A DNA stretch of 64,000 bases from Rhodocyclales bacterium (GTDB lineage Bacteria; Pseudomonadota; Gammaproteobacteria; Burkholderiales; Rhodocyclaceae): the NCBI GenBank assembly GCA_016192435.1, contig JACPUD010000069.1, positions 1-64,000 on the forward strand, in the 5' to 3' direction. Positions 14,733-38,824 of this stretch are shown here, one piece after another; the first letter of the stretch is position 1, and the number at the start of each line of letters is the position of its first letter. The notes beneath the pieces are model-generated. The model saw only the letters and a program-made list of their open reading frames with translations. It had not been told where the DNA came from and did no database searches. The translations under genes were made by a program, and so were the position numbers.

Positions 14733-14797
14733 GCACGGCGTTGGCGCAGTGGCCGATCATAGCGCCGCCGGCCACCATCAGGCCGCCCGGCAAGGCA

Positions 14798-15510: not shown

Positions 15511-15528
15511 CCCAACAATCTCAGTTCA

Positions 15529-15603: not shown

Positions 15604-15641
15604 CAAATGCTTTTTGCATGTTCATGGGTTATCCGCGGACG

Positions 15642-16955: not shown

Positions 16956-17016
16956 GGCATTTCCTTAAACGATCAGGGGATCGGCGACGCCGATCCCCTG
17001 AGGGGTGGAGCAGGAA

Positions 17017-18867: not shown

Positions 18868-18877
18868 GTTCGTCTCC

Positions 18878-19357: not shown

Positions 19358-19436
19358 TTCCAACCTCCTGTTTGACTCGAATATTCTTGGACTGAATCGC
19401 GTTCCTGTTCAGCATGCGACAGGACAATTTCCATTC

Positions 19437-20452: not shown

Positions 20453-20526
20453 GGTGACACTCTCCTCGGTTTTTTGCCGCCGGGCGGGCAACGAGCTACG
20501 CCCGGGCTGACGCGCGCACGCCCGCA

Positions 20527-21219
20527 TCAATTCGCGCCGGCCATGATCCACTTGATCAGGGACTTCAGGTCCTGCTCGGGTACGCTGTCCATCGGCGGCA
20601 TCGGCACCTTGCCCCAGCTTCCCGATCCGCCTTTCTTCAACTTGGTCAGCAACCTGGCTTCGGCATTCTTGTCCTTTGCATATTTCTTCGCCACTTCGCG
20701 GTAGGCCGGCCCGACGCCGCGGGTATCGACGGCATGGCAGGACAGGCAGTTCGACTTCTTGGCCAGCGCCGCCATCTCATTCACCGGCCCCGCTTCCTCT
20801 TCATGGCGCGTATCGAGATAGGAACGGATGGCCCAGATCGCCTCCTGCGACAAAATGCCTTCGAAGGGCGGCATGTACACGGCGCCGTTGCGCACCTTGC
20901 CGCGCCACACGGAGTCCCGGAAGTAGATGTCGGTCTCCTTGTCGAGGTCGAGCTTGCGCAGGTCCGGCGCGATGCCGCCGCTGATGGCCTCCAGGCCATG
21001 GCAGCGCGCGCAGTTCTGGTTGTACGCCGAGGTGCCGACGCGGATCGCCTCCTTGTCGCCGCGAAACGGATTTTCGTCGCGCTTCTGTTCGCCCAACGGT
21101 TTCAGGGTGCTGACATCGACCGCCTGTGGCGTTACATCGCCATGGGCCAGTACCATCGGCGAAAATATCGCGCCGGTTGCCAGCGCCAAGCCAATTAGAA
21201 ATCGAATGCTTGCATGCAT
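20527..21219 (-). CDS. diheme cytochrome c, PedF-like N-terminal half
   Basis: A 230-residue periplasmic protein, signal peptide residues 1-25 ending VLA-HGDVTPQ. The first heme site CARCH (C70, C73, H74) lies in a block (HGDVTPQAVD, AYNQNCARCHGLEAIS, MPPFEG) that I recognise as cytochrome c-550 PedF/ExaB, the electron acceptor of quinoprotein ethanol dehydrogenases. A second class I domain follows with CLSCH (C158, C161, H162) and VPMPPMD. PedF homologues normally have only the first half, so this is a fused tandem. The ATG at 21219 follows GGAGGAAACCCTTAC. It is first in a two-gene operon with the XoxJ-like gene. Confidence 0.85.
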   Translation of the reverse strand: MHASIRFLIGLALATGAIFSPMVLAHGDVTPQAVDVSTLKPLGEQKRDENPFRGDKEAIRVGTSAYNQNCARCHGLEAISGGIAPDLRKLDLDKETDIYFRDSVWRGKVRNGAVYMPPFEGILSQEAIWAIRSYLDTRHEEEAGPVNEMAALAKKSNCLSCHAVDTRGVGPAYREVAKKYAKDKNAEARLLTKLKKGGSGSWGKVPMPPMDSVPEQDLKSLIKWIMAGAN

Positions 21220-21293
21220 GTAAGGGTTTCCTCCAGGAAGTAATCGGCTTCGCTTGTGCCGAAACTTGGCCGGCACTGATTTGTTCTGCAAGA

Positions 21294-21308
21294 GCACTTA
21301 GCGTGCCA
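21294..21308 (-). promoter_or_regulatory. sigma-54 promoter of the pedF-like/xoxJ-like operon
   Basis: On the minus strand, TGGCACGCTAAGTGC has a perfect -24 TGGCACG and a -12 GTGC, with GG-N10-GC spacing. The predicted start is near 21282, about 63 bases before the ATG. ACTGTCGCAA lies 95 bp upstream at 21403-21412. Confidence 0.75.
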
Positions 21309-21533
21309 AAGATGGACCGGCTTACGCAAAGTTCTGATTCGAACCCGATCGAAAGCAGCAGGCACGAAACCTGCGATCAGCCTGTTCTGGTTCCTAATAT
21401 GGACTGTCGCAAGTTGAAACATCGGATGTATCATTACCGGGCAAGTAGCACATATGGTGCGTTGCAAGACAACGACACCAAGAGCTTTGCGCGCTCCTGG
21501 AGCGCAGCGGGGCCGGAACGAGGAGATCGGTCC

Positions 21534-24405: not shown

Positions 24406-24422
24406 TCATGATTTTCATGATT
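24406..24422. promoter_or_regulatory. shared TonB-gene motif, site upstream of the first receptor
   Basis: TCATGATTTTCATGATT lies about 100 bp before the receptor start at 24523. The same core ATGATTTTCATGA occurs before the PqqU-like receptor and before tonB. It is AT-rich and partly palindromic; a Fur-type or response-regulator site is possible. Confidence 0.5.
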
Positions 24423-24522: not shown

Positions 24523-26871
24523 ATGTCCTCATCGTCCGCAAAATCCAAACCTCTTGCCGGCCTGAGCCTGATCGCCCTGCTGTCGATGACACTGCCGGCG
24601 CTGGCCGCGGCCGACATCGAAGCGCCGACGGTCGAGGTGGTCGGCCTCTCGCCGATCAAGGGCCTCGAACAGGCCCGCGACGAAGTGCCGGCCCATGTCC
24701 AGTCGCTGGGCAGGCGGGTGCTGGGCGAGAACAGGCTGCAAGCCTTGCCCGAGCTGTTGGGTAGCCGCATCGCGGGCATCAATGTCAATGAGATACAGGG
24801 CAATCCCTATCAGGCCGACGTGAACTTCCGCGGCTTCAGCGCCAGTCCGCTACTCGGAACGCCGCAGGGGATATCGGTGTATCAGGACGGGGTGCGCATC
24901 AACGAACCCTTCGGCGATTCCGTGAACTGGGATCTGGTGCCGCGCGCAGCGCTCAGTTCGATCGACCTGATTCCGGGCTCGAACCCGCTGTTCGGCCTCA
25001 ATACCCTGGGCGGCGCGCTGTCGATCCGCACCAAGGACGGCTTTGCCCATCCCGGTGCCTCGCTCGAAGCCGGTGGCGGCAGCTTCGGCCGGCGCGAAGT
25101 CGAGGCTGAGTTCGGCGGCAGGCAGGGCGATCTCGGCCTCTTCGCCGCCGGCTCGAGCTTCCGCGAGGATGGCTGGCGCGACTTCTCCCCTTCCCGTGTC
25201 GACCAGTGGTTCCTCAAGCTGTCGCAGCAACGCGGTCCACTGGAATGGAACCTCGCCTACACCCATGCCGACACCGACCTGGTCGGCAACGGCCTGTTGC
25301 CCGATTCCATGCTGCAGGCGCGGCGCCGGAGCGTCTTCACCAAGCCCGACAACACGCGCCACCGCCTGCACATGCTGAATCTCGACCTCAGCTATTGGCT
25401 CGACGACAAGGCGCGCATTACCGGCACGCTCTACCATCGCAGCAACCGGGTGCGAACCCTCAACGGCGACGCCAATGACGCCTTCGAAGGCGACGCCGCG
25501 CTGGACGGCGATGCAGGCGCCAACGGCGGCCTCGGCTTCAACACCGACACCGCCGCCAGCAACCGCAGCGCCACCGACCAGCGCGGTTGGGGCGGCGCCC
25601 TGCAGTGGTCGCGGATCGACGACAACAATCACATCGCCTTTGGCCTGACCGGCGATTTCAGCAGATCGACCTTCCAGCAGACCACCGAGCTCGGCATTTT
25701 CGACGGCCAGCGCGGCGTGAGCGCAGCCGGCGCGGGCGAGGCGCTGAACAACCGCCTGAGCGGAACATCGCGCAGTTGGAGCCTGTTCGCCACCGACACT
25801 TACAAGCCGTGGGCAGGCCTGACCATCACGACTTCGCTGCGCCTGAACCAGACCCGCGTCACCACGCGCGACGAACTCCGCGCCACGGCACCCAATCTCG
25901 ACGGCGACCAGCTCTACACCAAGCTCAATCCGGCCATCGGTGCCAACTGGACGCTCGCGCCGGGCTTTTCGGTATTTGCCAATGCGGCCCAGGGCAACCG
26001 CGCGCCGAGCCCGATCGAACTGGGTTGCGCCGATCGCGCCAACCCCTGCTCGCTGCCCAATGCCATGCAGGCCGATCCCTTCCTCGCCCAGGTGGTGACG
26101 CAGACTTTCGAAACCGGAATGCGCGGCAAGGCCGGCAAGCTGCGCTGGAACGCGACGCTGTTCCGCGCCGACAACCGCGACGACATCCTCTTCGTCGGCA
26201 CCTCGACCAGCCAGGGCTACTTCAGCAACTTCGGCCGCACCCGGCGCGAGGGCGTCGAGCTCGGCGCGGCCGCCGAGCTCGGTGCCTTCTCCCTGCGCGC
26301 CGACTACGGCTACGTCAAGGCCAGCTACCAGTCGGCGGCCTGCCTGCTGGCGGAGAACAACAGCACGCGCGGACAGACCGCGGCCTGCACGGCCGGCGGT
26401 CAGGACGACGAAATCCTGGTGCAGGCCGGCAACCGGATTCCCGGCATTCCGCTGCACAGCCTCAAGCTCGGCGCCGACTGGCGCGCCGGCGCGAGCTGGA
26501 CCCTGTCGGCCGACCTGGTGGCCTATTCGAGCCAGTACCTGCGCGGCAACGAGAACAACGCGCATCAGCCCGGCAGCTTCGCCGACATCCTCGGCGGCGG
26601 GCCGCGCAGCTTCCTCGGTGCCGGCACCGCACCAGGCTATGCCGTGCTGAATCTTGCGGCCCGGGTCAAGCTCGACCCGCGCTGGCAGCTCTCGGCGCGG
26701 ATCAACAATCTGCTCGACCGGCGCTACGCCACGGCAGGCGCCCTGGCCGAGAATCCCTTCAATGCCACCGGCGTATTCCAGACCAACTCGGGCAACTGGA
26801 CGCGGGAAAGCTTCTACGCCCCCGGTGCGCCGCGGAGTATATTTATTGCACTCAATCTCAGCCTCGACTGA
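24523..26871 (+). CDS. TonB-dependent outer-membrane receptor
   Basis: A 782-residue receptor with a signal peptide (about 1-29), a TonB-box-like stretch APTVEVVGLSP, a plug domain (PELLGSRIAGINVNEIQGN, VYQDGVRINEPFGD) and a 22-strand-type barrel ending in aromatic-rich strands (APRSIFIALNLSLD). The ATG at 24523 gives a proper signal peptide; an upstream in-frame ATG at 24427 would put a long non-signal stretch in front. It is first in an operon with YceI and YVTN genes. Its ligand is unknown. Since the locus centres on a PQQ enzyme with a lanthanide-type site, a metal chelate or cofactor is a reasonable guess. Confidence 0.88.
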   Translation: MSSSSAKSKPLAGLSLIALLSMTLPALAAADIEAPTVEVVGLSPIKGLEQARDEVPAHVQSLGRRVLGENRLQALPELLGSRIAGINVNEIQGNPYQADVNFRGFSASPLLGTPQGISVYQDGVRINEPFGDSVNWDLVPRAALSSIDLIPGSNPLFGLNTLGGALSIRTKDGFAHPGASLEAGGGSFGRREVEAEFGGRQGDLGLFAAGSSFREDGWRDFSPSRVDQWFLKLSQQRGPLEWNLAYTHADTDLVGNGLLPDSMLQARRRSVFTKPDNTRHRLHMLNLDLSYWLDDKARITGTLYHRSNRVRTLNGDANDAFEGDAALDGDAGANGGLGFNTDTAASNRSATDQRGWGGALQWSRIDDNNHIAFGLTGDFSRSTFQQTTELGIFDGQRGVSAAGAGEALNNRLSGTSRSWSLFATDTYKPWAGLTITTSLRLNQTRVTTRDELRATAPNLDGDQLYTKLNPAIGANWTLAPGFSVFANAAQGNRAPSPIELGCADRANPCSLPNAMQADPFLAQVVTQTFETGMRGKAGKLRWNATLFRADNRDDILFVGTSTSQGYFSNFGRTRREGVELGAAAELGAFSLRADYGYVKASYQSAACLLAENNSTRGQTAACTAGGQDDEILVQAGNRIPGIPLHSLKLGADWRAGASWTLSADLVAYSSQYLRGNENNAHQPGSFADILGGGPRSFLGAGTAPGYAVLNLAARVKLDPRWQLSARINNLLDRRYATAGALAENPFNATGVFQTNSGNWTRESFYAPGAPRSIFIALNLSLD

Positions 26872-26889: not shown

Positions 26890-27456
26890 ATGACTATTCG
26901 CCATTTCACTGCCCTGCTGTCGATGCTCACCGTAACGGCCGCCAGCGCCGAGAGTTACAACATCGACCCGCGCCACACTTTCCCGGTGTTCGAGGTCAGC
27001 CACTACGGCTTTTCGCTGCAGCGCGGACGCTTCAACAAGCTCGCCGGCAAGCTCGAACTGGACCCCGGCGCGAAGAAAGGCTCGGTCGACATCAGCATCG
27101 ACATGGCATCGGTGGACATGGGTTTCGAGGACTGGAACAAGCAGATGCGCGGCGAGCGCTTCTTCCAGACCGACAAGTTTCCGCAGGCGCGCTTCGTCGC
27201 CCGCGACTTCGCCTTCGACGCCGCCCAGCCGGGCCCGGTCAATGGCGAGCTGACCCTGCTCGGCGTGACCCGCCCGGTGCAGCTCAAGGTCAGCCAGTGG
27301 CGCTGCGCCAAGCATCCGATCCTGCCGCGCCAACTTTGCGGCGCCGATCTGGAGACCACCATCAAACGCTCCGATTTCGGCATCAATGCGCTCCTCCCCG
27401 GCGTCGGCGACGACGTCCGGATTTCGATTCCGGTCGAAGCAATCAAGGACTCCTGA
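26890..27456 (+). CDS. periplasmic YceI family protein
   Basis: A 188-residue protein with a signal peptide (1-20) and the YceI lipocalin-like fold: YNIDPRHTFPVFEVSHYGFS, LELDPGAKKGSVDISIDMASVDMG (broken here only in description), and a late RSDFGINALLPGVGD. YceI proteins bind long isoprenoid or lipid-like ligands. It lies 18 bp after the receptor gene and its stop overlaps the next start (TGATG), so the three genes are one operon. Its task in this operon is unknown. Confidence 0.85.
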   Translation: MTIRHFTALLSMLTVTAASAESYNIDPRHTFPVFEVSHYGFSLQRGRFNKLAGKLELDPGAKKGSVDISIDMASVDMGFEDWNKQMRGERFFQTDKFPQARFVARDFAFDAAQPGPVNGELTLLGVTRPVQLKVSQWRCAKHPILPRQLCGADLETTIKRSDFGINALLPGVGDDVRISIPVEAIKDS

Positions 27457-28529
27457 TGAAACGCCATCCGCTTCCCCCCTCCCGCCTGCTGCTCGCTGCT
27501 TGCGGACTGGCCCTCGCCCTGCCGGCCATTGCCGCCGGAGGCGTCGCCTATGTCAGCAACCAGAAGGGCAATGTCACCACCATCGATCTGGACACATTCG
27601 AGACTGTGGGCGAAATCGACATCGGCGGCGGCGCGCCGCGCGGCCTGGGCGTCACCGCCGACGGCAAGCTGCTGGTGGTCGCCTCGCGCGACAAGGGCGA
27701 CCTCGCCGTGATCGAGCTCGCGAGCCGCAAAGTGGTCAGGCGCATCCCGATCGGCAAGAACCCCGAGTTCGTCCGCGTGCGCGGCAACCAGGCCTTCGTC
27801 TCCTTCGAACCGGCCTCCGCCGGCGGTCCCCCGCCCAAACCCGGTTCGACGGAAGCTGCGGAACTCAAGCAGAAGCGCGTCGAGGACAAGGAACAGCCGG
27901 CACGGATTGCGATGGTCGATCTCGCCGCCGGCAGGAAGACTGCCGAGATCACCGGCGGCATGGAAACCGAGGGCATAGAGTTCTCCGCCGATGGCAGCAA
28001 GATCATCGTCACCAACGAGGACGACAACACCCTCACGGTGCATGACATCGCCAGCGGCAAGCTGCTCAAGACGATCGACACCAGGCCTTACGGCACCCGG
28101 CCGCGCGGCATCAAGATGGCCCCCGACGGCAAGTCCTACGTCGCCACCATCGAGTTCGGCAACAAGCTGGTGGTGCTCGATGCGGGCTTCGCGGTGGTGA
28201 AGGTGGTGGCAACCGGCGACACCCCTTACGGCGTGGCTTTCGATCGCGGCGGCAGCCGCCTCTATGTCGCGCTGGCCAAGGGCAAGACCCTGCAGGTGTT
28301 CGACGCCGCGAGCTTCGCCCGCATTGCCGAATACCCGATTGGCGAACGCTGCTGGCATTTCAGCTTCACGCCCGACGACAAGCACATTCTGGTCGCCTGC
28401 GGCCGCTCGGACGACGTGGTGGTGCTCGACGCCGCCAGCGGCAAGATCGTCAAGCGCATCGCCGACAAGCAGATGCCCTGGGGCATCGTCACTTATCCGA
28501 AATCTTTCGGCAGCCTCGATACGCCCTGA
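27456..28529 (+). CDS. YVTN beta-propeller protein (PQQ-catabolism-associated type)
   Basis: A 357-residue exported beta-propeller. Signal peptide about 1-27; then repeated blades of the YVTN type (VAYVSNQKGNVTTIDLDT, IIVTNEDDNTLTVHDIASG, ILVACGRSDDVVVLDAASG). Proteins like this are often encoded next to PQQ-dependent alcohol dehydrogenases and are annotated as PQQ-dependent-catabolism-associated. An insertion of about 35 residues rich in Pro and charged residues (GGPPPKPGSTEAAELKQKR) lies between blades. The start overlaps the YceI stop. The biochemical role is not established. Confidence 0.82.
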   Translation: MKRHPLPPSRLLLAACGLALALPAIAAGGVAYVSNQKGNVTTIDLDTFETVGEIDIGGGAPRGLGVTADGKLLVVASRDKGDLAVIELASRKVVRRIPIGKNPEFVRVRGNQAFVSFEPASAGGPPPKPGSTEAAELKQKRVEDKEQPARIAMVDLAAGRKTAEITGGMETEGIEFSADGSKIIVTNEDDNTLTVHDIASGKLLKTIDTRPYGTRPRGIKMAPDGKSYVATIEFGNKLVVLDAGFAVVKVVATGDTPYGVAFDRGGSRLYVALAKGKTLQVFDAASFARIAEYPIGERCWHFSFTPDDKHILVACGRSDDVVVLDAASGKIVKRIADKQMPWGIVTYPKSFGSLDTP

Positions 28530-28579: not shown

Positions 28580-28599
28580 CCACTCATCCTCGGCAGAAA

Positions 28600-28633
28600 A
28601 AAGACCGGCGGCAAACGCGTTGCGCCGGTCTTT
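28600..28633. terminator. bidirectional terminator between the YVTN gene and the PQQ dehydrogenase
   Basis: AAAGACCGGCG (28600-28610) and CGCCGGTCTTT (28623-28633) form an 11-bp stem. A-rich sequence precedes and TTT follows, so it can stop transcription from both convergent genes. Confidence 0.75.
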
Positions 28634-28688
28634 GAATGAGGCGATCCGCATTCTCGAACGGATCACATCAGGAGGAGCCCACCCTGCC

Positions 28689-30446
28689 CTACTTGCCGCT
28701 CTTGTGCAGCTTGAAGACCCACATCGAACCGCCCTGGTTCAGGTAGTTGACTCTCTTCGCCACGTCGCCGCCCCACAGCGGCACCGCACCGCCCCAGCCC
28801 GAAGCCACGCCGATGTACTGCTCACCGTCCTGCTCCCAGCTGATCGGCGGCGCGACCACGCCCGACCCGGTCTGGAAGGACCAGACTTCCTTGCCGGTCT
28901 TGGCGTCGGCCGCCTTGAGGAAACCTTCCGGCGTGCCCCAGAACACCAGGCCGCCCTTGGTCGTCAACACGCCGCCCCAGAGCGGGGCGTTGTTCCTGAC
29001 TTCCCAGACGATCTTGCCGGTGGCCGGATCGACCGCGCGCATGGCGCCGATGTAGTCGCCGCCGATGTCCTTCGAGTCCAGCGTGCGGATGGTGAAGCCG
29101 GCACCGAGGTAGGCCGCGCCCTTCTTGTAGCTGACCGGCTCGTTCCAGATCTCCATGCCCCATTCGTTGGCCGGCACATAGAAGTAGCCGGTATCCGGGC
29201 TGTAGGCCATCGGCATCTGGTTCTTGCCGCCGAGGAAGGACGGCGCCGAGAATACGGACGTGCCCTTCTTGCCGTCGGCGCTCTTGGCCGGATCGCCGGG
29301 GCGATTGGCCGCATCGAACTTGGGCCGGCCGTCCGCGTCGAGGCCGGTGGCCCAGGTGATCTTCTTGACGAAGGGGAAGCCCTTCTGGAACTTGCCGGTC
29401 TTGGCATCGAGCACATAGAAGAAACCGTTGCGGTCGGCCTTGCCGCCGAGCTGCTTGCCGTCCTTGCCCTTGAAGGTGACGAACTCGTTGACGCCGTCAT
29501 AATCCCAGCCGTCGTTCGGCGTGCCCTGGAAGTGCCACACGATCTGGCCCGTGGCGACGTCGATGGCCACCGTGGAGCAGGAATACAGGTTGTCGCCGGG
29601 ACGCAGCGCGCTGTTCCACGGTGCCGGGTTGCCGGTGCCGAAATAGGCCAGGCCGGTCTCGGGATCGTAGGTGCCGCCGAGCCAGGTGGCGGCGCCGCCG
29701 GTCTTCCACAGGTCGCCGGGCCAGGTCGCGTTGGTGGTGCCGGAGATGCCGTTGTCTTTGCCGTCCTTCATGCCCATGTGGCCTTCGACCGTCGGCCGTA
29801 CCCAGACCAGCTTGCCGGTCTTGGCGTCGCGCGCTTCGACACGGCCAATGACGCCGAACTCGCCGCCGGAGACGCCGGTGAGCACCAGACCCTTGGCAAT
29901 GATCGGCGCCGCGGTGGCGGAGTAGCCGGCCGAGTACTCGTCGATCTTTTCCTTCCACACCACCTTGCCGCTGTCCTGGTTCAGCGCCACCAGTTGCGCG
30001 TCGAGCGTGGCGAAAATCACCAGGTTGTCATACAGCGCCGCGCCGCGGTTGACCACGTCGCAGCAGGGCATGATGCCGTCGGGCAGCCGGTGTTCGTATT
30101 GCCACAGTTTCTTGCCGGTCCTCGCATCGAGGGCGAACAGCCGGGAGTAGGAACCCGTCACGAACATCTTGCCGTTGTGGATCACCGGCTGCGATTCCTG
30201 GCCGCGCTGCTTCTCGCCGCCGAAGGAGAAGGACCACACCGGCACCAGATCCTTGACCGTCTTGGTGTTGATCTTGGCCAGCGGGCTGTAGCGCTGGCCC
30301 TGGGTGCCGAGGCCCCAGGACAGAACGTCGCCCGGGGTCTTGGCATCGCTTTCAATATCCTTGTCGGTGACCGCGGCCATGCCGGATGAGGCCGCCAGGG
30401 TCATCAAGGCGCTGGCAACCAGCACCGACGTCAGGGTACGTTTCAT
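28689..30446 (-). CDS. PQQ-dependent alcohol dehydrogenase, lanthanide-type active site
   Basis: A 585-residue periplasmic quinoprotein with a signal peptide (1-24). The adjacent-cysteine ring C128-C129 ([10 protein letters not shown]) is that of methanol/ethanol dehydrogenases. Metal ligands fit E196 (SGGEFGVIG) and N273 (GTGNPAPWN). The catalytic base D315 is followed by D317 in [10 protein letters not shown]; the second Asp marks lanthanide-using XoxF/ExaF/PedH enzymes, whereas calcium enzymes have Ala or Ser there. There is no C-terminal heme domain, so it needs a separate cytochrome c. The ATG at 30446 has AGGAGG at proper spacing. A sigma-54 promoter lies upstream. Confidence 0.92.
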
Positions 30447-30517
30447 CAAATCTACCTCCTGCCAAGTGTTTTATGGATCATCGGACACGCCCTCGCGTAT
30501 CCGTACGGACTTGGTCA

Positions 30518-30532
30518 GCAAGTAGGATGCCA
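30518..30532 (-). promoter_or_regulatory. sigma-54 promoter of the PQQ alcohol dehydrogenase gene
   Basis: The minus strand reads TGGCATCCTACTTGC with GG-N10-GC spacing. The start would be near 30506, 60 bases before the ATG. GTCGCAA (minus strand, 30560-30566) lies about 30 bp further upstream. Confidence 0.75.
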
Positions 30533-30593
30533 GCGCATCTGCACAGATGAAAAGCCGCATTGCGACGGCTTCGGGGTGATCGAAGCGCCGCCT

Positions 30594-30625
30594 GCGGGTC
30601 GACCCGCCTGCTGCAAAAGCAGGCA
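30594..30625. repeat. two adjacent palindromes downstream of the PqqU-like gene
   Basis: GCGGGTCGACCCGC (30594-30607) is a perfect 14-bp palindrome. It is followed by GCCTGCT and AGCAGGC arms around a short loop (30606-30624). They lie between the PqqU-like gene end and the dehydrogenase promoter and may end transcription, although no T tract follows. Confidence 0.5.
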
Positions 30626-30654
30626 GGTGTTGCAGAATGAGACGGCCGCGTGTT

Positions 30655-32784
30655 TCAGAAGCCGTAGCTTGCGGTCATCCCCAGCAAGTAGTTGCGGCCC
30701 GGGGCGGGTTCGAAGAAGTTGCTGTTGCCCTCATTCACGATGACCGAGCCGGAATATTTGCGGTCGCCGAGATTGTCGATGCGCAGGAACTCCTTGAGCT
30801 TCCAGCCGTCCCGCGTCTGCTCGAAACCCAGCCGCAGGTTGGCGACCGCATACGCCGCGGCGGCGTCGGAGTTGCGGTCATCGACATACACCTTCGACAC
30901 GGCGCGCGCTTCCAGCGCCGCGAGAAAGCCGCTCGCCGGATGGCGCCAGGACAGCTCGGCAAAGGCCGTGGTCGCTGGCACTCCCGGTATCTGGTTGCCC
31001 GCATTGACCAGGGTCGTCGGCACCAGGCAGGGCGTGCCGGTACAGGTCAGAAAGGCCTGGTCATACACGGCACGCAGCGCCGTGAAGGCACCATAGGCGC
31101 GGAAGTTCCCCGGCAGGCCCAGATCCGCGCTCAACTCGGCGCCTTCGCGCTTGGTGCCGGCGACGTTCTGGAACACGGCACGCCCGCCGCTGTTGGACAG
31201 CGTCACCAGTTCATCGCGGGTCTTGATCTGGAAAATCGCCGCGCTCAGCAGGGCATCGCTGCCCAGCGCCGCCTTGACGCCGAGTTCGAGGTTGTCGCTC
31301 TTGCTCGGACGCAAACCGAAATTGAGTCCGGCGCCGCCGGCGCGGTAGGACAGCTCGTTCAAGGTCGGCGTCTCGAAGCCGCGACCCCAGGCCGCATAGA
31401 GATTCACCGCATCGCTGACGCGGAAGGTGGCACCCAGCGATCCGGTCACGGCGGCGAAGTCGGTGCGGCCGCTGTCGTCGCCGTTGCCGGTGATGACGAA
31501 ATGGTCCTTCGAGGCCACCTTCACCACGCTGTTGCGCAGGCCGGCCATCAGGCGCCAGCGCGGCGTCGGCTCCCATTGCGTCTGCAGGTACTGGTCGAAG
31601 TTGAATATCTCGTTGGCCTCATCGCGCTTGGTGCGGCCCAGCACCCCCAACTGCGCGCCGATGAAGTTCTGGAAGCCGCGGCGGGTTTCGTTGAGCATGT
31701 CGTAATTGATCCCGGCGCTGGTCGTGACCGGAGCGCCGGCCAATTGGCCGCGATGCGTCCAGCGCAGATCGACGCCCCAGTAGTCGCGCACCAGGTCGAT
31801 CACGCCGCCGGCCTGCCCGGCCGGCGTTTGCGCGCCGACGGTAATCGCCTGGAACTGGATCGTGTCGCGATGGCCGCGATAGAACATCACATGCGCCGTG
31901 TCGTCAGCGCCAACTTTCAGTTCGTAGTTGAGACCAAGCTGCTGCTGGCTGACGCTCTTGCGCACATCGAAGTCATAAGCGGCCTGGCGCGCCTGCTTCG
32001 GGTTGGCGTCATAGTCGGCGCGGTTGAGTCCCAGCGGATCCTGGATGTCGGGCATGTCCACGCTGTTTACGATCAGCGTCAGCCTGGCATCGGGCGTCGG
32101 CGCCCAGCGCAGCTTGGCATTCAGGTTTTCGCGCTTGGCCGCGCTGTGGTCGCGATAGCCCTCGGTGCGGAAAGTCGAGGCATCGACCACGTAGTTGAGG
32201 CCACTGCGCTCGCCCGAGAGCTTCGCGCCGATGCGCTGGGTGCCATAGCTGCCCAAGGCGATGCCGGGTTCGAGGCGCATCCCGGGCGCGCCGTCTTCGG
32301 TGAACACGCTGATCACTCCTCCCGATGAATTCCCGTAGAGCGAGGAAAACGGCCCGCGCAGGACTTCGATGCGCGCCGCCGAACCGAGGTCGATGTGCGA
32401 GACCTGGCCCTGGCCGTCGGGCATCGTCGCAGCAATGCCATCGGCGTAGATGCGCAGGCCGCGCACGCCGAAGCTGGCGCGCGCGCCAAAGCCGCGCGAG
32501 GAGATCTGCAGGTCCTGCGCATAGTTCTGCCGGTTCTGCGCGACGATGCCGGGAATCCGCGCAAGCGATTCGGAGAGATTGATCTGCAGCTGGCCGTCCT
32601 GGATCTGTGCCTGGTTCAGGCTGTCGATCGAGACCGGCAGGTCGAAGCCCGATTGCTCGACGCGGGTGGCGGTGACGACCACGGGGCTCGTGGTCAGGGC
32701 GGGCGGTGCGGCGAACGCGCCGGCGGCATGAATGCCGCCTATCAGGGCTGGCAGCAGCAGGCGGGCGGTAGAGGGCAGGGACAT
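30655..32784 (-). CDS. pqqU: TonB-dependent receptor closely resembling PQQ importer PqqU (YncD)
   Basis: A 709-residue receptor: signal peptide 1-26, TonB-box region SPVVVTATRVE, plug domain, beta barrel ending in aromatic residues (TASYGF). It shares long near-identical plug stretches with my memory of E. coli YncD/PqqU, the PQQ uptake receptor: INLSESLARIPGI, QNRQNYAQDLQIS, ATMPDGQGQ, LRGPFSSLYGNSSGGV, also GYRDHSGA-like GYRDHSAA and GRGFETPTLNELSYRA. It lies beside a PQQ dehydrogenase and near tonB. The start at 32784 gives a proper signal peptide. Copy 9 of the dispersed repeat encodes KVGADDTAH. Confidence 0.85.
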   Translation of the reverse strand: MSLPSTARLLLPALIGGIHAAGAFAAPPALTTSPVVVTATRVEQSGFDLPVSIDSLNQAQIQDGQLQINLSESLARIPGIVAQNRQNYAQDLQISSRGFGARASFGVRGLRIYADGIAATMPDGQGQVSHIDLGSAARIEVLRGPFSSLYGNSSGGVISVFTEDGAPGMRLEPGIALGSYGTQRIGAKLSGERSGLNYVVDASTFRTEGYRDHSAAKRENLNAKLRWAPTPDARLTLIVNSVDMPDIQDPLGLNRADYDANPKQARQAAYDFDVRKSVSQQQLGLNYELKVGADDTAHVMFYRGHRDTIQFQAITVGAQTPAGQAGGVIDLVRDYWGVDLRWTHRGQLAGAPVTTSAGINYDMLNETRRGFQNFIGAQLGVLGRTKRDEANEIFNFDQYLQTQWEPTPRWRLMAGLRNSVVKVASKDHFVITGNGDDSGRTDFAAVTGSLGATFRVSDAVNLYAAWGRGFETPTLNELSYRAGGAGLNFGLRPSKSDNLELGVKAALGSDALLSAAIFQIKTRDELVTLSNSGGRAVFQNVAGTKREGAELSADLGLPGNFRAYGAFTALRAVYDQAFLTCTGTPCLVPTTLVNAGNQIPGVPATTAFAELSWRHPASGFLAALEARAVSKVYVDDRNSDAAAAYAVANLRLGFEQTRDGWKLKEFLRIDNLGDRKYSGSVIVNEGNSNFFEPAPGRNYLLGMTASYGF
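31894..31918 (-). repeat. dispersed 25-bp repeat, copy 9, inside the PqqU-like gene
   Basis: The minus strand reads GAAAGTTGGCGCTGACG then ACACGGCG. It lies in frame in a barrel loop region of the receptor gene and encodes the residues KVGADDTAH. Confidence 0.75.
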
Positions 32785-32863
32785 GGCTTTTCCAGGGAAA
32801 TCGGGAGAAGCGGCATTGTTGCCGGCTTCGCCCGGAAACGCCCGCGTCGAATCGCGCGTCTGC

Positions 32864-32884
32864 GGCTCATGATTTTCATGAGCC
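32864..32884. promoter_or_regulatory. shared TonB-gene motif, site upstream of the PqqU-like receptor
   Basis: Arms GGCTCATGA and TCATGAGCC around TTT form a perfect 9-bp inverted repeat containing the core ATGATTTTCATGA. It lies 80 bp upstream of the receptor start and 8 bp beyond the response-regulator stop codon. It could be an operator or, less likely, a terminator (no T run on the minus strand). Confidence 0.55.
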
Positions 32885-32891
32885 GGTTCTT

Positions 32892-33533
32892 TTAGGCGTC
32901 GATCAGCCCGTTGCGGATTGCGATCAAGGTCAGCTCGGCGGAATTTCCGGCGCCGAGTTTCTGCTTGATGTTGTACAAATGCGTGCCCACGGTGCGCGGG
33001 CTGAGGAACAGCACTTCGGCAATCTCGGCCACCGACTTGCCGCGCGCGAGCATCACGAACACCTCGAATTCGCGCGCCGACAGGGCCTCCAGCGGATTGC
33101 CCTGGCTGCCGACCTGCTCCACGCCGATTTCCTGCGCCAGCGCCGGTTCGAGAAACAGCTTGCCGGCGGCCACCTGGCGAATCGCCTCGATCAGGGCATC
33201 GGCCGCGCTGCGCTTGGTCAGGTAGCCGAGCGCCCCGGCCGCCAGCGCACGCCGCGGATGCGCGGTGTCCTCGTGGGCCGAGAGCACCAGCACGCGCACC
33301 GCGGGCCACTTCGCCAGCAGCCTGGAGAGCGTTTCCAGACCGCCCATGCCGCCCATCGAAAGATCGAGCACGACCAGGTCGGGATTGACCTCGGCAAAGC
33401 ACTTCAGCGCCTCTTCGCCGCTGCCGCATTCGGCCACCACGCGCAGGTCGCTGGTGGTATCGAGCAGCAGGCGAAAGCCCATGCGCACCACGGCGTGATC
33501 GTCGACCAGCATGATGCGCAAGGTCTGGCTCAC
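32892..33533 (-). CDS. LuxR/NarL-family response regulator
   Basis: A 213-residue two-component regulator. The receiver domain (1-120) has the phosphoacceptor aspartate in DLVVLDLSMGG and the acidic pair in MLVDDHAVV. The C-terminal LuxR-type HTH (about 150-210) includes LSAREFEVFVMLARGKSVAEI (split here: LSAREFEVFV, MLARGKSVAEI) and SPRTVGTHL. Its start codon overlaps the end of the histidine kinase gene, so the pair is co-translated. It lies in line after tonB and before the PqqU-like receptor; its targets are probably within this locus. Confidence 0.9.
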   Translation of the reverse strand: MSQTLRIMLVDDHAVVRMGFRLLLDTTSDLRVVAECGSGEEALKCFAEVNPDLVVLDLSMGGMGGLETLSRLLAKWPAVRVLVLSAHEDTAHPRRALAAGALGYLTKRSAADALIEAIRQVAAGKLFLEPALAQEIGVEQVGSQGNPLEALSAREFEVFVMLARGKSVAEIAEVLFLSPRTVGTHLYNIKQKLGAGNSAELTLIAIRNGLIDA

Positions 33534-34786
33534 TCGGAATCTCCTGGCAACGGAAGCACCATGCTAACGCGGAACCCGCCCTCCGCTCCGGCCGCCGTCT
33601 CCAGGCTGCCACCGAGCGCCACGACCCGCTCGCGCATGCCGATCAGGCCGTGGCCCGAGGCTGTCACCCCAGCGACGCCGCCGCCTGCCGCGCCACCCGC
33701 CACTCCTTCCGCCGCGAAACCCCGGCCGTTGTCTTCGATGCTGGCTTCCAGGCGGCCGTCACGTCGGCTCACCGCGAGCTGAATGCGGCTCGCCTGCGCG
33801 TGTTTGAGCACGTTCGTCAGCGCCTCCTGGACGCAGCGAAAGGCAGCCAGGGTCACGGCCTCGCCGAGGTCGCCGAGATCGCCTTCGAGTTCGAGCGCCA
33901 GTTCGACTTGCGGATGCCGAACCCGCCATTCGCGCCCGAGGTCGGCCAGGGCCGCAGCGAGATCCGGCTGTTCGAGCACCGCAGGGCGCAACTCGCGCAC
34001 GATGCGATGCACGCTGTCGTAAAGGCCGGCCGCAATCTCGTTGATCTTCGCCGTGCCCTGCACCGCACCGTCCGATTCGGTGCTGCGTGCGATCGACGCC
34101 GCGATCAGGCGGATCGCGGTCACCGACTGGCCCAGTTCGTCATGCAGCTCGCGTGCCAGGCGCTTGCGCTCCTCCTCGACGCCGGCCTGGATCAATCGCG
34201 TCACCTCGCGGTTTTCCGCCAGTTGCAGCGTGGTCGCCACCAGCCGCCGCGCATCGGCCTCGGTCGGACGCAGCAGGCGGCGCAGGAACAAGAGCAGCGC
34301 CCCATGCAGCACGGCGACGAAACCCAGGCCGAGCAGGAAAATCGCGCTCATGCTGTCCCAGGCATCGAGCACCGAACGCGAGGCATCGGGCACGATCTCG
34401 ATGCGCGCTCCAGGCAAGCCGATCACGGTCGCCTGCAGCCGCGGCTGCATGCGCGCCTCGAACCAGTCGGGGGCGCGGTGCCCGGCCTTGTAAGTGGCCG
34501 GTGGCGACTCGTAGCGCAACACGCCGTCGTTGGAGTAAAGCCGAATCACGTTGGCGCGCACCCGCTTCAGGCTTTGCAGGTAATCCACCATCACCATCGG
34601 CGCCGAGCCGAACATGCGGCTGGTCTGCGCCGCGGTGCCGAGCATCTGCACCGTGACGCGGTGCGCGGCCTCGACTTCTTCCTGTATCGAGCGGCGATGG
34701 TTGTCCACCAGCAGCCAGGTCAGGGCCACCAGGAAACCCAGATTGAGGCCGGCCACCAGCAGGTTCAGCCGCAGGCGCAGGCTCAT
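33530..34786 (-). CDS. sensor histidine kinase, NarX/UhpB type
   Basis: A 418-residue membrane sensor. A first helix (about 7-27), a periplasmic region of about 115 residues without a recognisable domain, and a second helix (about 145-170) precede the HisKA_3 dimerisation motif RLARELHDELGQSVTAIRLI (phospho-His in ELHDELGQ) and an HATPase domain (EALTNVLKHAQAS, EDNGRGF, GHGLIGMRERV). There is no HAMP domain. It pairs with the overlapping LuxR-type regulator. The stimulus may be periplasmic, for example an alcohol, a metal or PQQ; that is inference from location. Confidence 0.9.
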   Translation of the reverse strand: MSLRLRLNLLVAGLNLGFLVALTWLLVDNHRRSIQEEVEAAHRVTVQMLGTAAQTSRMFGSAPMVMVDYLQSLKRVRANVIRLYSNDGVLRYESPPATYKAGHRAPDWFEARMQPRLQATVIGLPGARIEIVPDASRSVLDAWDSMSAIFLLGLGFVAVLHGALLLFLRRLLRPTEADARRLVATTLQLAENREVTRLIQAGVEEERKRLARELHDELGQSVTAIRLIAASIARSTESDGAVQGTAKINEIAAGLYDSVHRIVRELRPAVLEQPDLAAALADLGREWRVRHPQVELALELEGDLGDLGEAVTLAAFRCVQEALTNVLKHAQASRIQLAVSRRDGRLEASIEDNGRGFAAEGVAGGAAGGGVAGVTASGHGLIGMRERVVALGGSLETAAGAEGGFRVSMVLPLPGDSE

Positions 34787-34825
34787 CGATGCATCACTCG
34801 GGCGGCAGGCAGATGTCCAGGGTGT

Positions 34826-35602
34826 CTAGGACGTGATGCGGAACACCACGGGCACATCGACGGTGAGCGGCCGGCCGGCCAGGGCCGCGGGCAGGGATGG
34901 CAGGGGGAAGGCCTGGCGCACCATTTCCAGCGCCTGCCGATCGAGTGTGTCATGGCCGCTTGAGCTTAGCACGCTGACCCCGAGCAGGCGGCCGTCCGCC
35001 GCGAGTTCCAGTTGCAGCACGGCCGTGCCCTGCCACTGGCGCAGCAAGGCGATACGCGGGTAGCGCTGGTGCTGGGCGATCGCGCCGGCCAGCTCGCGGC
35101 CATAGGCGGCCAGCGTCCCCGCGTCGACTGCAGTCGGGCGCGACGGCGCGGGGGGCGGGCCGGCGCGTGGCACTTCGATCGGCGGCGCGGCAGTCGGAGT
35201 CGGCTCGCCCTGGCGCAGGACCGGGGCGTCCCGCCCCGCTTCCGGGACCGGGCTGGCAAGCACAGGCGAGCTTCGCTGCGGTGCGGGCGCGCGGCGGCCC
35301 GGAGGCTGCGCCGCTGCAGCGGCGAAAGTTGGCGCTGGCGGCACGGCGAGCGCCTGGGGTCCGGGCGCAGGTGGCACGGCGAACCTCGCGGGTTCAGGCG
35401 CGGGCGCGATCAAGCGGGCCTGCAGGGCTTGTCGCGGCTCCGGCTCGTCCCTGCGGCCTTCCAGTCCGGGCAGCCAGCCCAGGGTAAAGCTGTGGATCAG
35501 CACGGAGGCGAGCACGGCCGCGCCGAAGTGCCAGTCGGCCCTGGCGCTGGGTCGGGTCATGGCTGGAAAGCTGAAGGGATATCCGAGTACGGCGGTATTC
35601 AT
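34826..35602 (-). CDS. tonB: TonB energy-transducing protein
   Basis: A 258-residue protein with one N-terminal membrane anchor (about residues 27-45, AAVLASVLIHSFTLGWL), a long Pro/Ala-rich periplasmic linker (about 60-155) and a C-terminal TonB domain (RYPRIALLRQWQGTAVLQLE, split as RYPRIALLRQ and WQGTAVLQLELAADG; SGHDTLDRQALEMV). There are no exbB or exbD genes nearby, so it must use partners encoded elsewhere. It lies 39 bp upstream of the histidine kinase gene on the same strand. A dispersed repeat inside the linker encodes VPPAPTF. Confidence 0.88.
   Translation of the reverse strand: MNTAVLGYPFSFPAMTRPSARADWHFGAAVLASVLIHSFTLGWLPGLEGRRDEPEPRQALQARLIAPAPEPARFAVPPAPGPQALAVPPAPTFAAAAAQPPGRRAPAPQRSSPVLASPVPEAGRDAPVLRQGEPTPTAAPPIEVPRAGPPPAPSRPTAVDAGTLAAYGRELAGAIAQHQRYPRIALLRQWQGTAVLQLELAADGRLLGVSVLSSSGHDTLDRQALEMVRQAFPLPSLPAALAGRPLTVDVPVVFRITS
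35324..35348 (+). repeat. dispersed 25-bp repeat, copy 10, inside tonB
   Basis: GAAAGTTGGCGCTGGCG then GCACGGCG, a close match to the consensus. On the tonB coding strand it encodes VPPAPTF in the proline-rich linker. Confidence 0.75.
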
Positions 35603-35650: not shown

Positions 35651-35666
35651 AATCATGAAAATCATT
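35651..35666. promoter_or_regulatory. shared TonB-gene motif, site upstream of tonB
   Basis: AATCATGAAAATCATT, whose reverse complement is AATGATTTTCATGATT, lies 49 bp before the tonB start and about 150 bp before the small open frame at 35803. The core is the same as at 24406 and 32864. Confidence 0.5.
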
Positions 35667-35715
35667 ACCGCGGCGAACCCGGCCGCTGCACCCGGCACGA
35701 CAATGAAATACTCCT

Positions 35716-35802: not shown

Positions 35803-35874
35803 GTGGCACTTGAAGAAGCACGCCTGACCAAGCCGGCGCCGGCGCGCGCCACCCCTGCCGATGTGCGCGCCTAG
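35803..35874 (+). CDS. possible 23-residue leader peptide
   Basis: A GTG at 35803 with GAGGAG a few bases upstream opens a frame reading MALEEARLTKPAPARATPAD-VRA and ending at TAG 35872-35874, overlapping the start of the NosR-like gene by 14 bases. This suggests translational coupling. It does not resemble PqqA (no Glu-x3-Tyr core) and I know no homologue. It may also be chance. Confidence 0.35.
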   Translation: MALEEARLTKPAPARATPADVRA

Positions 35875-37981
35875 GCTCATCCGCGCCGCCAGGGCAGGCG
35901 CAGGATTGCTGGCGGGCCTGCTGCTGTGCTACCTGCCGGCGGCGGCCGGCGACTTGACCCGGGCCGATATCGAGCGACGCTTTGCGCGGCCGCTGCATGT
36001 CGGCGAAAAGCTGCGCGAGATCGCCGCCTGGCCGCTGAGCAGCGAACTCCAGCCCGATGCCGGACCCGTCGGCTATGTCTTCGAATCGATCGACCTGGCG
36101 CCGATACCGGGCTTCGAGGGCACGCCGCTGAACCTGCTGGTGGCGATCGACGCCGACGGCAAGTTCATCGATGTCGAAGTCCTGCGCCAGCACGAGCCGG
36201 TGTTTCTCGGCGGCCTCGGCCCGCTGCCGCTCCAGGAGTTCGTCAAGCAGTACCAGGGCAAGAACCTCAAGCAGGACATCACGGTCGCCAGCACTTACGG
36301 CGCCACCCGCGCCGGCGGAGGCAAGCGTGTCGTGCTCGACGGCGTGGCCAAGGCCACCGCCTCGGTGCGCATCGTCAATCAGTCGGTGCTCGCCGCGTCC
36401 CTCGCGGTCGCCCGCGCCCGCCTCGGCTTTGCCGATCCCGGCAGCGGCGCGCCGCCAGCCGTGGTCAAGCCGCTGCCCTTCGAGGCCATGGACTTCGCCA
36501 CCCTGGTCCAGCGCGGCTACGTGCAGCGCCTGTCCCTGAGCAATGCCGATGTCGAGCAGCTGTTCGCCGGCAGCGAAGGCGCCGGCAGCGACGAACAGGC
36601 GCTGAGCAAGCCGGAAGAACTCTTCGTCGAAGTCTATGTGGCCTATCTCAATGCGCCCAGCATCGGCCGCAATCTGCTCGGCGATGCCGCCTGGGCGAAG
36701 TTCCAGGCCTATCTGGTGGACGAGCGCCCGGCGTTCTGGATCGCCACCCGCGGCCGCTATGCGCTGGTCGACGAGGCCTTCGTGCCGGGCACGCCGCCGC
36801 CGCGCCTGGCGCTGGTGCAAAGCGAACTGCCGATCGAGCTGCGCGATGCCAACCGCGACTACGCGCGCCTGCCAGCACTCGGCGAATTGACCAGCGCCCT
36901 GATCCTGACCGCACCGGCCCATGCCGGACTCGATCCGGGACGGCCCATGGAGTTTCGCTTCAGCGTCAGCCGCGCCCGCGGCATGATCCTGCCGGTCCTG
37001 ACGCAGCAGCAGATCAGCCTGCGCTATACGCCGCCCGCGGAACTCTTCGACTACCCGCCGCGGCCGCTGCCGGAATGGCTGCAGGCCTGGCAGGGGCGGC
37101 TGCCCGACCTGTTGGTGATCGGCGCCGCGCTGCTGCTGCTGTGCGCCGTGCTGCTGCGCCCGCGCTGGTTCGCGGTGAAGCCGCGCCGCCTGTTCTGGTT
37201 CCGCAGCGGCTTCCTCGCCTTCACCCTGGGCTACATCGGCTGGTATGCGCAGGGCCAGCTTTCGATCGTGCAGATCACCGGTGCGATCAAATCCCTGGTT
37301 GCCGGCGGCGGACTCAAGAGCTTTCTCTACGACCCGGTTTCGCTCCTGCTGATCGCCTTCACCCTGGTCAGCCTAGGCGTCTGGGGCCGCGGCACTTTCT
37401 GCGGCTGGCTCTGTCCCTTCGGCGCCCTGCAGGAGTTCGTGGCGCGGCTCGCCGGCGCGCTGCGCCTGCCGCAGTGGCGCCTGCCGGCGTCTGTGTCGCG
37501 CCTGCTGGCACGCAGCCGCTATGCGATCCTCGCCCTGCTGGTCGGCGCCGCCGCCTTTGCCCCGGCCGCCGCCGAGAGGCTGGTGGAGATCGAACCCTTC
37601 AAGACCGCCATCACGGTCGGTTTCCAGCGCGAATGGCCCTTCCTGCTCTGGGCCGGCGGCCTGCTGCTGGCCGGCGCCTTCGTGTACAAGTTCTTCTGCC
37701 GCTTCATCTGCCCGCTCGGCGCGGCGCTGACGCTGGGCGGCAGGCTGCGGCGCTGGAACTGGCTGCCGCGCATCGAGGCCTGCGGCCAGCCCTGCCAGAA
37801 GTGTCGCAACACCTGCCGCTACGAGGCTATCCTGCCCGGCGGCGCCATCGCCTATGACGAATGTTTCGAGTGCCTCGACTGCGTCGGCATCTACCACGAC
37901 AGCAGGCGTTGCGGACCGCAACGCCTGCAGGCGGCCAGGGGCAAGCACATCGTCTTCCCGCTGCGCCGGAAAAATCCCTGA
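35861..37981 (+). CDS. NosR/NirI-like flavin and iron-sulfur membrane protein
   Basis: A 706-residue protein with the NosR plan: signal/first helix (about 8-28), a periplasmic FMN-binding domain (about 60-190, with STYGATRAGGG as the likely covalent flavin site), several membrane helices (about 415-605), two CxxxCP motifs (FCGWLCPFGALQEF and FCRFICPLGA) and a C-terminal ferredoxin-like part (CGQPCQKCRNTC, CFECLDC). NosR supplies electrons to nitrous oxide reductase, but no nosZ or other nos gene is nearby. A possible sigma-54 promoter lies upstream. It may serve electron transfer across the membrane for this oxidation locus. No good ribosome site precedes the ATG. Confidence 0.85.
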   Translation: MCAPRLIRAARAGAGLLAGLLLCYLPAAAGDLTRADIERRFARPLHVGEKLREIAAWPLSSELQPDAGPVGYVFESIDLAPIPGFEGTPLNLLVAIDADGKFIDVEVLRQHEPVFLGGLGPLPLQEFVKQYQGKNLKQDITVASTYGATRAGGGKRVVLDGVAKATASVRIVNQSVLAASLAVARARLGFADPGSGAPPAVVKPLPFEAMDFATLVQRGYVQRLSLSNADVEQLFAGSEGAGSDEQALSKPEELFVEVYVAYLNAPSIGRNLLGDAAWAKFQAYLVDERPAFWIATRGRYALVDEAFVPGTPPPRLALVQSELPIELRDANRDYARLPALGELTSALILTAPAHAGLDPGRPMEFRFSVSRARGMILPVLTQQQISLRYTPPAELFDYPPRPLPEWLQAWQGRLPDLLVIGAALLLLCAVLLRPRWFAVKPRRLFWFRSGFLAFTLGYIGWYAQGQLSIVQITGAIKSLVAGGGLKSFLYDPVSLLLIAFTLVSLGVWGRGTFCGWLCPFGALQEFVARLAGALRLPQWRLPASVSRLLARSRYAILALLVGAAAFAPAAAERLVEIEPFKTAITVGFQREWPFLLWAGGLLLAGAFVYKFFCRFICPLGAALTLGGRLRRWNWLPRIEACGQPCQKCRNTCRYEAILPGGAIAYDECFECLDCVGIYHDSRRCGPQRLQAARGKHIVFPLRRKNP

Positions 37982-38633: not shown

Positions 38634-38824
38634 GATCGATGCTCCGTGCTGAGGAAAGCTCACGTCGCCACTATAGCTCCTGGCCGCAATTCCTCAAGTC
38701 GAGTCCGCAGCGAACCGTGCAAACTGCCACATGTGTCGACAATTTGCGGCAGGCCTTTTTCGGGCACACTTGTAAGCAATCGCGGCTTTGGCCGACCAAG
38801 CCAGACCATCTCCGGAGACACGGC

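Follow-up and report, generated by a model that had tools for sequence, protein, structure and literature searches.

We analyzed a 64,000-nucleotide stretch of Rhodocyclales DNA (GenBank assembly GCA_016192435.1, contig JACPUD010000069.1, hereafter the window) and conclude that it probably carries an island for salvage of pyrroloquinoline quinone (PQQ) and for alcohol oxidation, in which a PqqU-type receptor, a PedH-like dehydrogenase, cytochrome PedF and a second TonB-dependent receptor, here called TBDR2, would act together. This reading is drawn from the gene identities, the PQQ-site residues of the PqqU, a lanthanide-type Asp in the dehydrogenase, the lack of detectable pqqB, pqqC and pqqE, and three copies of a putative operator, all of them read from DNA sequence. 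The window makes up the first 64 kb of a contig of 99 kb, and the source genome (G000; 3.52 Mb in 148 contigs, 83% complete) is that of a bacterium related to Sulfuritalea. A preliminary description of this stretch had named a receptor beside a PQQ dehydrogenase, a two-component system and tonB, and profile matches agree with each of these five assignments, all on the minus strand:

28689..30446, minus strand: PedH-like periplasmic PQQ alcohol dehydrogenase (TIGR03075, 743.6 bits, cut-off 480)
30655..32784, minus strand: PqqU-type TonB-dependent PQQ receptor of 709 aa (NF041535, identity, PQQ contacts, tree and AlphaFold model)
32892..33533, minus strand: NarL/LuxR-type response regulator (PF00072 and PF00196)
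33530..34786, minus strand: sensor histidine kinase (HisKA_3/HATPase_c) in which, by hydropathy, two membrane spans flank an outer segment of about 118 residues
34826..35602, minus strand: island-encoded tonB (TIGR01352, 65.3 bits, cut-off 27.1)

The response regulator gene overlaps the kinase gene by 4 bases. The extent given earlier for the locus, 28689-35602, has correct coordinates but is too narrow, as the genes that accompany these five in relatives as well span roughly 20.5 kb to 38 kb. The lanthanide-type PedH group, the second TonB receptor, the further island genes and the prior publication of the PqqU system (PMC12124388) were likewise overlooked.

The receptor is a PqqU as judged by sequence and modeled fold, and is predicted to import PQQ. 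It is 45% identical to Escherichia coli PqqU (YncD), and when compared by phmmer with all solved structures it matches YncD/PqqU at E=3.5e-174 (6v81) and E=2.8e-173 (9c4o) with all others at 2.8e-13 or weaker, in keeping with the plug-motif likeness to the E. coli protein that had been pointed out before. In the accessible text of PMC12124388, PqqU is selected by an aromatic residue at 99, Arg304 and Arg365, and 12 PQQ contacts are described, 11 of which can be named from that text. The window receptor retains every one of these 11 (Q84, Y99 as F, Q121, K274, R304, Q308, Q310, R365, N477, Y481 and R536), and the Phe in place of Tyr99 is a substitution that the authors of that text accept. One of these contacts is printed there as both N477 and N447, and we used position 477, the one at which E. 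coli has Asn (its residue 447 is Trp). The three signature residues, F105, R306 and R368 in the numbering of the window receptor, occur together in 48/48 PqqU rows of our alignment and in none of six other rows (E. coli BtuB, CirA, FhuA and FepA, and two of TBDR2). A tree of 57 receptors, built by a quick method with long outgroup branches flagged and an ingroup picked by similarity to the window receptor, puts the PqqU rows including that of E. coli on one side of a branch with a support of 100 (Shimodaira-Hasegawa-like approximate likelihood ratio test). The AlphaFold model of the receptor (mean predicted local distance difference test score, pLDDT, 80) is closest to the PqqU-PQQ structure 9c4o (template modeling, TM, scores 0.89/0.95), followed by YncD 6v81 (0.87/0.95) and then by FecA (0.77/0.84). 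The tree, the modeled structure and the comparison of PQQ-binding residues, all named in the preliminary description as checks on its PqqU assignment, came out in favor of it. What speaks against this assignment is the NCBIfam equivalog model NF041535 for PqqU, for which the receptor scores 719.5 bits against a cut-off of 1200; 80 of 199 family genomes match this model, none reaching the cut-off, and among controls E. coli alone passes it, the 1200 bits being a naming threshold and not a published defining residue. Co-transport of a metal by PqqU, as in the Glu274 variant of PMC12124388, was rejected, as the window receptor has Lys at this position and therefore gives no sign of the metal-co-binding Glu variant. 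The receptor resembles E. coli PqqU (PMC12124388; 6v81/9c4o) in clade, identity, named contacts and K274; it differs in its setting, an island that also encodes a tonB, a two-component system and a PQQ enzyme of its own. The annotation of the 15 kb surrounding E. coli pqqU shows none of these, and pqqU there lies beside yncE.

The dehydrogenase is a member of the PQQ methanol/ethanol dehydrogenase subfamily, and its nearest solved kin is PedH of Pseudomonas putida (6zcv, 848 bits), with the ExaA-type 1flg at 654 bits and XoxF at 382. The 6zcv and 6zcw chains are titled ethanol dehydrogenase, and their identity as PedH is taken from PMC11845868, which in the portion available lists 6ZCW. The same portion states that an extra Asp marks XoxF and PedH and that ExaA types have Ser or Thr at this place. 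In the window enzyme the region NDGWDYDG contains Asp315 followed by Asp317, the lanthanide-type residue of the motif WDYDG, and an adjacent Cys pair occurs at 128. By these residues the dehydrogenase is PedH-like and of the lanthanide type, and it most likely uses a lanthanide together with PQQ. Its electron acceptor is likely a cytochrome encoded nearby, whose open reading frame (ORF) as listed probably begins upstream of the true start:

20527..21297, minus strand: cytochrome c-550 PedF with a second c-type heme motif (two CXXCH), over the cut-off of the equivalog TIGR04494 (222.7 bits, cut-off 122)

We next consider where the PQQ comes from. The preliminary description had seen no pqq synthesis gene in the window and had proposed a cell that imports the cofactor for its periplasmic dehydrogenase, a proposal that a complete pqq operon elsewhere would overturn. 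Across the assembled G000 there are zero matches to pqqB and pqqC at E<=0.001, and for pqqE there are only distant radical S-adenosylmethionine (SAM) proteins, the best at 78.5 bits against a cut-off of 381; the search covered these three genes and did not extend to pqqA and pqqD. The radical-SAM gene in the window at 38639-39823 (plus strand) is ArsS of arsenosugar synthesis (454.9 bits, cut-off 300) and not PqqE, and it lies beside a gene for a DUF4126 protein. Only one TIGR03075 dehydrogenase in G000 is over the cut-off, TIGR03075 being the one quinoprotein kind that was searched.

To allow for the missing 17% of the genome, we also examined relatives. pqqC is absent from 7 of the 8 PqqU-bearing relatives searched (genomes for which completeness is not given), including L046, a Sulfuritalea metagenome-assembled genome with the same island and a PqqU 94% identical to that of the window. 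At the genus level pqqB is found in one of 21 genomes and in 0/12 of those that are at least 90% complete. Among 199 genomes of the family, 80 have PqqU, 81 have the TIGR03075 dehydrogenase and 75 have both (Fisher 6e-41, for genomes that are related and not independent). pqqC occurs in 54 of the 199, a count that omits weak below-cut-off matches in G076 and G123 (38.7 and 34.7 bits) and keeps a truncated below-cut-off one in G089; 49 genomes have PqqU and pqqC, and 26 have PqqU and the dehydrogenase without pqqC. These co-occurrence counts indicate that PqqU follows the dehydrogenase in this family with or without synthesis.

Several observations weigh against salvage as the sole supply and favor a cell that makes its own PQQ from genes in the missing ~17% of the genome, with PqqU only recapturing leaked cofactor. 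A pqq cluster could have been missed in an assembly of this completeness and of 148 contigs; 49 of the 80 PqqU genomes have pqqC, so PqqU often serves recapture; and G212, the sole genus genome with pqqB, also has the island. Nevertheless, we regard own synthesis as quite improbable given that all three genes sought are unfound in G000, that the closest island-bearing genome (L046) lacks pqqC, that pqqB is so rare in the genus and wanting from its most complete genomes, and that 26 family genomes pair PqqU with the dehydrogenase but lack pqqC. The cell probably cannot make PQQ itself, and PQQ salvage is supported: the genome-wide search leaves the earlier proposal standing, and the tree, the PQQ-binding signature and the unfound pqqB, pqqC and pqqE all favor import of the cofactor for the periplasmic dehydrogenase.

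The other cofactor of the enzyme may have a receptor of its own. Convergent with the dehydrogenase gene lie three genes that apparently form one operon, the last two of which overlap at ATGA:

24523..26871, plus strand: TBDR2, second TonB-dependent receptor (PF00593/PF07715), with an ATG at 24523 in an ORF that opens at 24427
26890..27456, plus strand: YceI-family periplasmic protein (PF04264)
27456..28529, plus strand: YVTN beta-propeller protein, PedA2-like (TIGR03866, 155.1 bits, below the PedA2-family cut-off of 287.3)

Our best single guess, at about even odds, is that TBDR2 is a receptor for a lanthanide or a lanthanide chelate, a guess that comes from the company that it keeps. Of the 199 family genomes, 61 have a TBDR2 homologue (E<=1e-60); a TIGR03075 dehydrogenase is present in 60 of these 61, and the start-to-start distance between the two genes is 10 kb or less in at least 31 of the 53 genomes (out of the 61) from which distances were taken, such linkage counts being lower bounds. 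A PedH-like enzyme 69-88% identical to that of the window is encoded in each of the 33 regions fetched that have both TBDR2 and a dehydrogenase, and the lanthanide Asp is present in 32 of these enzymes, the remaining one (L184) ending at a contig end before this residue; 13 of the 33 regions also hold an ExaA type. For dehydrogenases elsewhere in TBDR2 genomes 75 places were listed and part of them fetched. Less similar quinoproteins (35-41%) in the TBDR2-bearing L048, L049, L086, L313, L318, L319 and L335 have the Asp in 7/7 cases. When the dehydrogenases of 75 family genomes were read, TBDR2 was found in 56 of the 67 with a PedH-like enzyme and in none of the 8 without one, where G095 (the genome of L184) is counted as PedH-like on identity (74%) alone. 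Five TBDR2 genomes lie outside this set of 75, and for two of them a quinoprotein in the vicinity was read as well.

The association is less consistent outside the family. Matches to TBDR2 occur in 34 of 369 class genomes, the source genome included, and we read 20 regions from 19 genomes outside the family. In six of them the TBDR2 homologue has pedA1/pedA2-type genes and a two-component system as neighbors; in a seventh it adjoins pqqB and ABC genes, and in an eighth a dehydrogenase and a PqqU. The propeller is over the PedA2-family cut-off in 4/4 of the outside-family TBDR2 regions tested. A PedA1-type binding protein is over the cut-off, together with pqqB and PedC, in L311, which is from another family, and below it in L303 and L314. 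The L311 cluster (400-17794) also has a PedA2-type gene, an aldehyde dehydrogenase, a two-component system and the TBDR2 homologue. Among plasmids, of which eight TBDR2-homologue regions out of 24 records were read, a dehydrogenase lies within 10 kb in 4/8 and has the Asp in 4/4; three of these enzymes are PedH-like (Sphingobium, Novosphingobium and Variovorax) and one, from Burkholderia multivorans, is 39% identical. Two other plasmid regions show no link, and in one the homologue (28% identity) has a response regulator, an EF-hand protein and a YncE-family protein for neighbors.

Not all of this favors a lanthanide cargo. Eleven PedH genomes lack TBDR2; 12 of the 20 outside-family regions, some of them on short contigs, have no PQQ or lanthanide gene (one has a 33% PqqU-like receptor); the closest plasmid homologue (44%; L341, Ideonella dechloratans) is near copper genes; no PedB-type ATPase is over the cut-off in G000; and the AlphaFold model of TBDR2 is poor (pLDDT 60), resembles many receptors and is silent on ligand. 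The neighbors in L341 are MbnP, MbnM, a cytochrome c peroxidase and a second TonB receptor. The island itself has no recognizable lanthanide-type ABC transporter. The idea that all TBDR2 homologues serve PQQ enzymes was dropped on account of the same 12 regions. Import of another compound linked to alcohol metabolism or to electron transfer, for instance a copper chelate or the substrate alcohol, is accordingly a genuine possibility, if the lesser one, to which the copper genes and peroxidase in L341 and the lack of a quinoprotein neighbor for most homologues outside the family lend weight. It accounts less readily for the 56/67 versus 0/8 distribution in the family, for the lanthanide Asp in the nearby non-PedH-like quinoproteins of G006 and G148 (TBDR2 genomes outside that count), for the PedA1/PedA2-type genes that TBDR2 adjoins elsewhere, and for the PedH-like enzymes alongside it on the Sphingobium, Novosphingobium and Variovorax plasmids. 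TBDR2 may be a branch of the known LanA/LutH-like group, since LanA and LutH-like receptors are described in methanotrophs in the part of PMC12482762 available to us.

Evidence for joint control of the two receptors comes from a near-palindrome, TCATGANAATCATKA, copies of which lie in three island promoter regions, the third beside a further island gene:

24406..24422, minus strand: operator copy 1 (AATCATGAAAATCATGA), upstream of TBDR2
32867..32883, minus strand: operator copy 2 (core TCATGAAAATCATGA), upstream of pqqU
35651..35667, plus strand: operator copy 3 (core TCATGAAAATCATTA), between tonB and the nosR-like gene
35861..37981, plus strand: NosR-like membrane flavoprotein/4Fe-4S protein, divergent from tonB (Fer4_5, weak FMN_bind)

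At up to three mismatches AATCATGAAAATCATGA occurs three times in the window against 0.03 expected, and 0/100 shuffles reach three; this count is circular, because the pattern was picked after the three sites had been spotted by eye in promoters, and the genome-wide and cross-genome counts are not. Across the assembled 3.52 Mb, exact matches to TCATGANAATCATKA are found only at the three island sites, and a reversed control pattern has one match. Kin of the response regulator that are 78-96% identical adjoin PqqU in six distinct relatives. Taking as criteria at least 11 of the 12 fixed bases of TCATGANNNTCATGA and a regulator at least 75% identical to that of the window, the operator is upstream of pqqU in 16/16 loci carrying the regulator (12 distinct after removal of four duplicates) and in 10 of 100 loci where the regulator was not seen, these 100 including duplicates and short contigs where a regulator could lie out of sight. 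A regulator of 57-67% identity is present in five of those 10, and several end too soon for one to be visible. The Fisher value for 12/12 versus 10/100 is 1.5e-10, which for related genomes is a guide only. This distribution indicates one regulon, with the island response regulator as the leading candidate to bind the site. The operator-bearing genes would thus form a single cofactor-acquisition regulon, with the operators bound, we infer, by the island's own two-component system. Less favorable to such a regulon is that within regulator-bearing loci the operator is at TBDR2 in only 3/6 and at nosR-like/tonB in 9/15, and that it is at the dehydrogenase in 3/13 (two distinct) and not at that of the window.

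The operator might instead be a Fur box, with pqqU, TBDR2 and tonB plainly iron-regulated and TBDR2 a siderophore receptor. TonB receptors are often Fur-regulated, the core ATGAAAATCAT presumably resembles part of a Fur box, and the best score of TBDR2 is to a general siderophore-receptor model, albeit at 104 bits against a cut-off of 223.5. A Fur box would be expected at many iron genes, however, and the genome-wide scarcity of the operator disfavors this explanation: exact TCATGANAATCATKA is confined to three places, the three one-mismatch sites elsewhere are at no recognizable iron genes (short ORFs, judged by eye), and the site before pqqU tracks the island response regulator. We therefore consider control by Fur unlikely.

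In the mechanism that we propose, TonB-powered PqqU would bring external PQQ into the periplasm, where it would load the PedH-like dehydrogenase; this enzyme would work with a lanthanide and PQQ and hand electrons to cytochrome c-550 PedF, while TBDR2 would bring in the other cofactor, the lanthanide or its chelate, and the operators would switch pqqU, TBDR2 and tonB/nosR-like together via the island two-component system. The fullest form of this proposal, a dedicated two-cofactor regulon with PqqU for PQQ, TBDR2 for the lanthanide, the island TonB as driver and the two-component system as switch, is one that we advance tentatively, as slightly more apt to fail than to hold. Were it true, TBDR2 would be the kind of receptor that is missing from the PedH picture and, in bacteria other than P. 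putida, a concrete candidate for bringing lanthanides through the outer membrane; the operator would give access to how cells might induce uptake of both cofactors together.

Part of this is a new member of a known system. PQQ salvage by PqqU is known and common: the PqqU system was published in 2025 (Munder et al., PMC12124388), and the portions of that paper available to us report PqqU without pqq genes across 22 bacterial phyla, synthesis genes in only 23% of PqqU bacteria, and four Burkholderiales genomes in which pqqU adjoins a pqq operon. What is new is a PedH-like enzyme in a larger island with TBDR2, the propeller and PedF; an operator common to pqqU, TBDR2 and tonB whose exact form is nowhere else in the assembled genome; and the association of TBDR2, whose family is not named for a lanthanide role in the literature that we found, with lanthanide-type alcohol dehydrogenases across the family. 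The mostly open-access literature searched, supplements of PMC12124388 apart, yielded no report of the operator, of a PedH island that contains pqqU or of a connection between TBDR2 and PedH, and none on a TCATGA half-site with a response regulator, alcohol dehydrogenase and PQQ. In mostly open-access sources we found none on Sulfuritalea with PQQ and nothing on the subject for Rhodocycl- with a PQQ-dependent lanthanide alcohol dehydrogenase.

P. putida, which has a comparable gene cluster, makes PQQ. As described in the accessible parts of PMC12997753 and PMC6839425, the ped cluster of strain KT2440 (PedH, PedS2/PedR2, PedA1A2BC) resembles the island in its PedH-like enzyme with the extra Asp, in PedF (over the cut-off here), in a two-component system and in a PedA2-like propeller; the island differs by including PqqU, tonB and TBDR2, and its genome by having no PedB-type ATPase over the cut-off. 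The same parts state that PedA1A2BC is needed for lanthanum-dependent growth of P. putida at low lanthanum (PMC6839425) and that this organism is without a LutH homologue, its outer-membrane lanthanide route being called unresolved (PMC12997753, 2026). The Methylorubrum extorquens lut cluster (LutH TonB receptor and LutAEF), going by the available text of PMC7391723, likewise groups a TonB receptor with periplasmic proteins and serves lanthanide-dependent alcohol oxidation; the island differs from it in having no recognized ABC transporter of the lanthanide type.

The enlarged gene set around the five core genes also includes a DUF1097 gene, and further genes lie on the PedF side:

15642-16955, minus strand: PadH-like FAD subunit of the aldehyde:ferredoxin oxidoreductase set
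17017..19363, minus strand: aldehyde:ferredoxin oxidoreductase and ferredoxin-like subunit (PF01314/PF02730)
19586..20551, minus strand: periplasmic substrate-binding-like protein (SBP_bac_3)
21126..23582, plus strand: GAF/sigma-54 activator (PF00158)

The oxidoreductase set (15642-19363) resembles the tungsten aldehyde oxidoreductase set AorABC, and it is a possible candidate for the next step, oxidation of the aldehyde product of the dehydrogenase. The substrate-binding-like protein has kin near pedF/PedH elsewhere, at 34-35% identity in the PedH clusters of Sphingobium and Methylorubrum, and homologues of the sigma-54 activator are near the dehydrogenase or TBDR2 in several relatives. The NosR-like protein scores 508.7 bits for NF046105, short of the NosR naming cut-off of 1000, and is 45-47% identical to 4Fe-4S proteins of three plasmid PedH clusters (Variovorax, Aquabacterium and Methylorubrum).

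Nine island genes occur in the same order and with 84-96% identity on 12 kb of L046, the closest island-bearing relative, where the sigma-54 gene is only partial, and subsets are present in L050, L051, L109/L277 and L166. The nosR-like, tonB, kinase, regulator and PqqU genes are in order in the genus members L275, L277, L279, L280, L281 and L282; the L278 locus ends at a contig end, and L283 is without PqqU at the corresponding place. A misbinned contig was rejected, as nine other genomes of the genus carry homologues of the nosR-like gene at 72-90% and the G+C content (66%) is even along the window (0.64-0.66). That the locus is unique to this species within the genus, as five congeners without PqqU had suggested, was rejected because six other congeners carry the gene set, as seen in the 21 genus genomes and fetched regions.

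In L277, L280 and L281, PqqU is only 46-47% identical to that of the window and the adjoining regulator is 90-92% identical. From these identities PqqU seems to have been exchanged inside a conserved island, with phage escape as one possible reason. In L275 a quinoprotein-relay zinc hydrolase (TIGR04558, 415 bits) and a SoxYZ-like carrier (TIGR04557, 214 bits), encoded at 3576-5362 on the minus strand, sit between PqqU and the dehydrogenase, where the window has 208 bases. The dehydrogenase of G212 (L281, 4011-5756, minus strand) is split over two reading frames by sequencing error or decay. Finally, the propeller and dehydrogenase genes converge on a GC-rich inverted repeat with A and T tracts, seen by eye at 28584-28640, that has the look of a terminator serving both.

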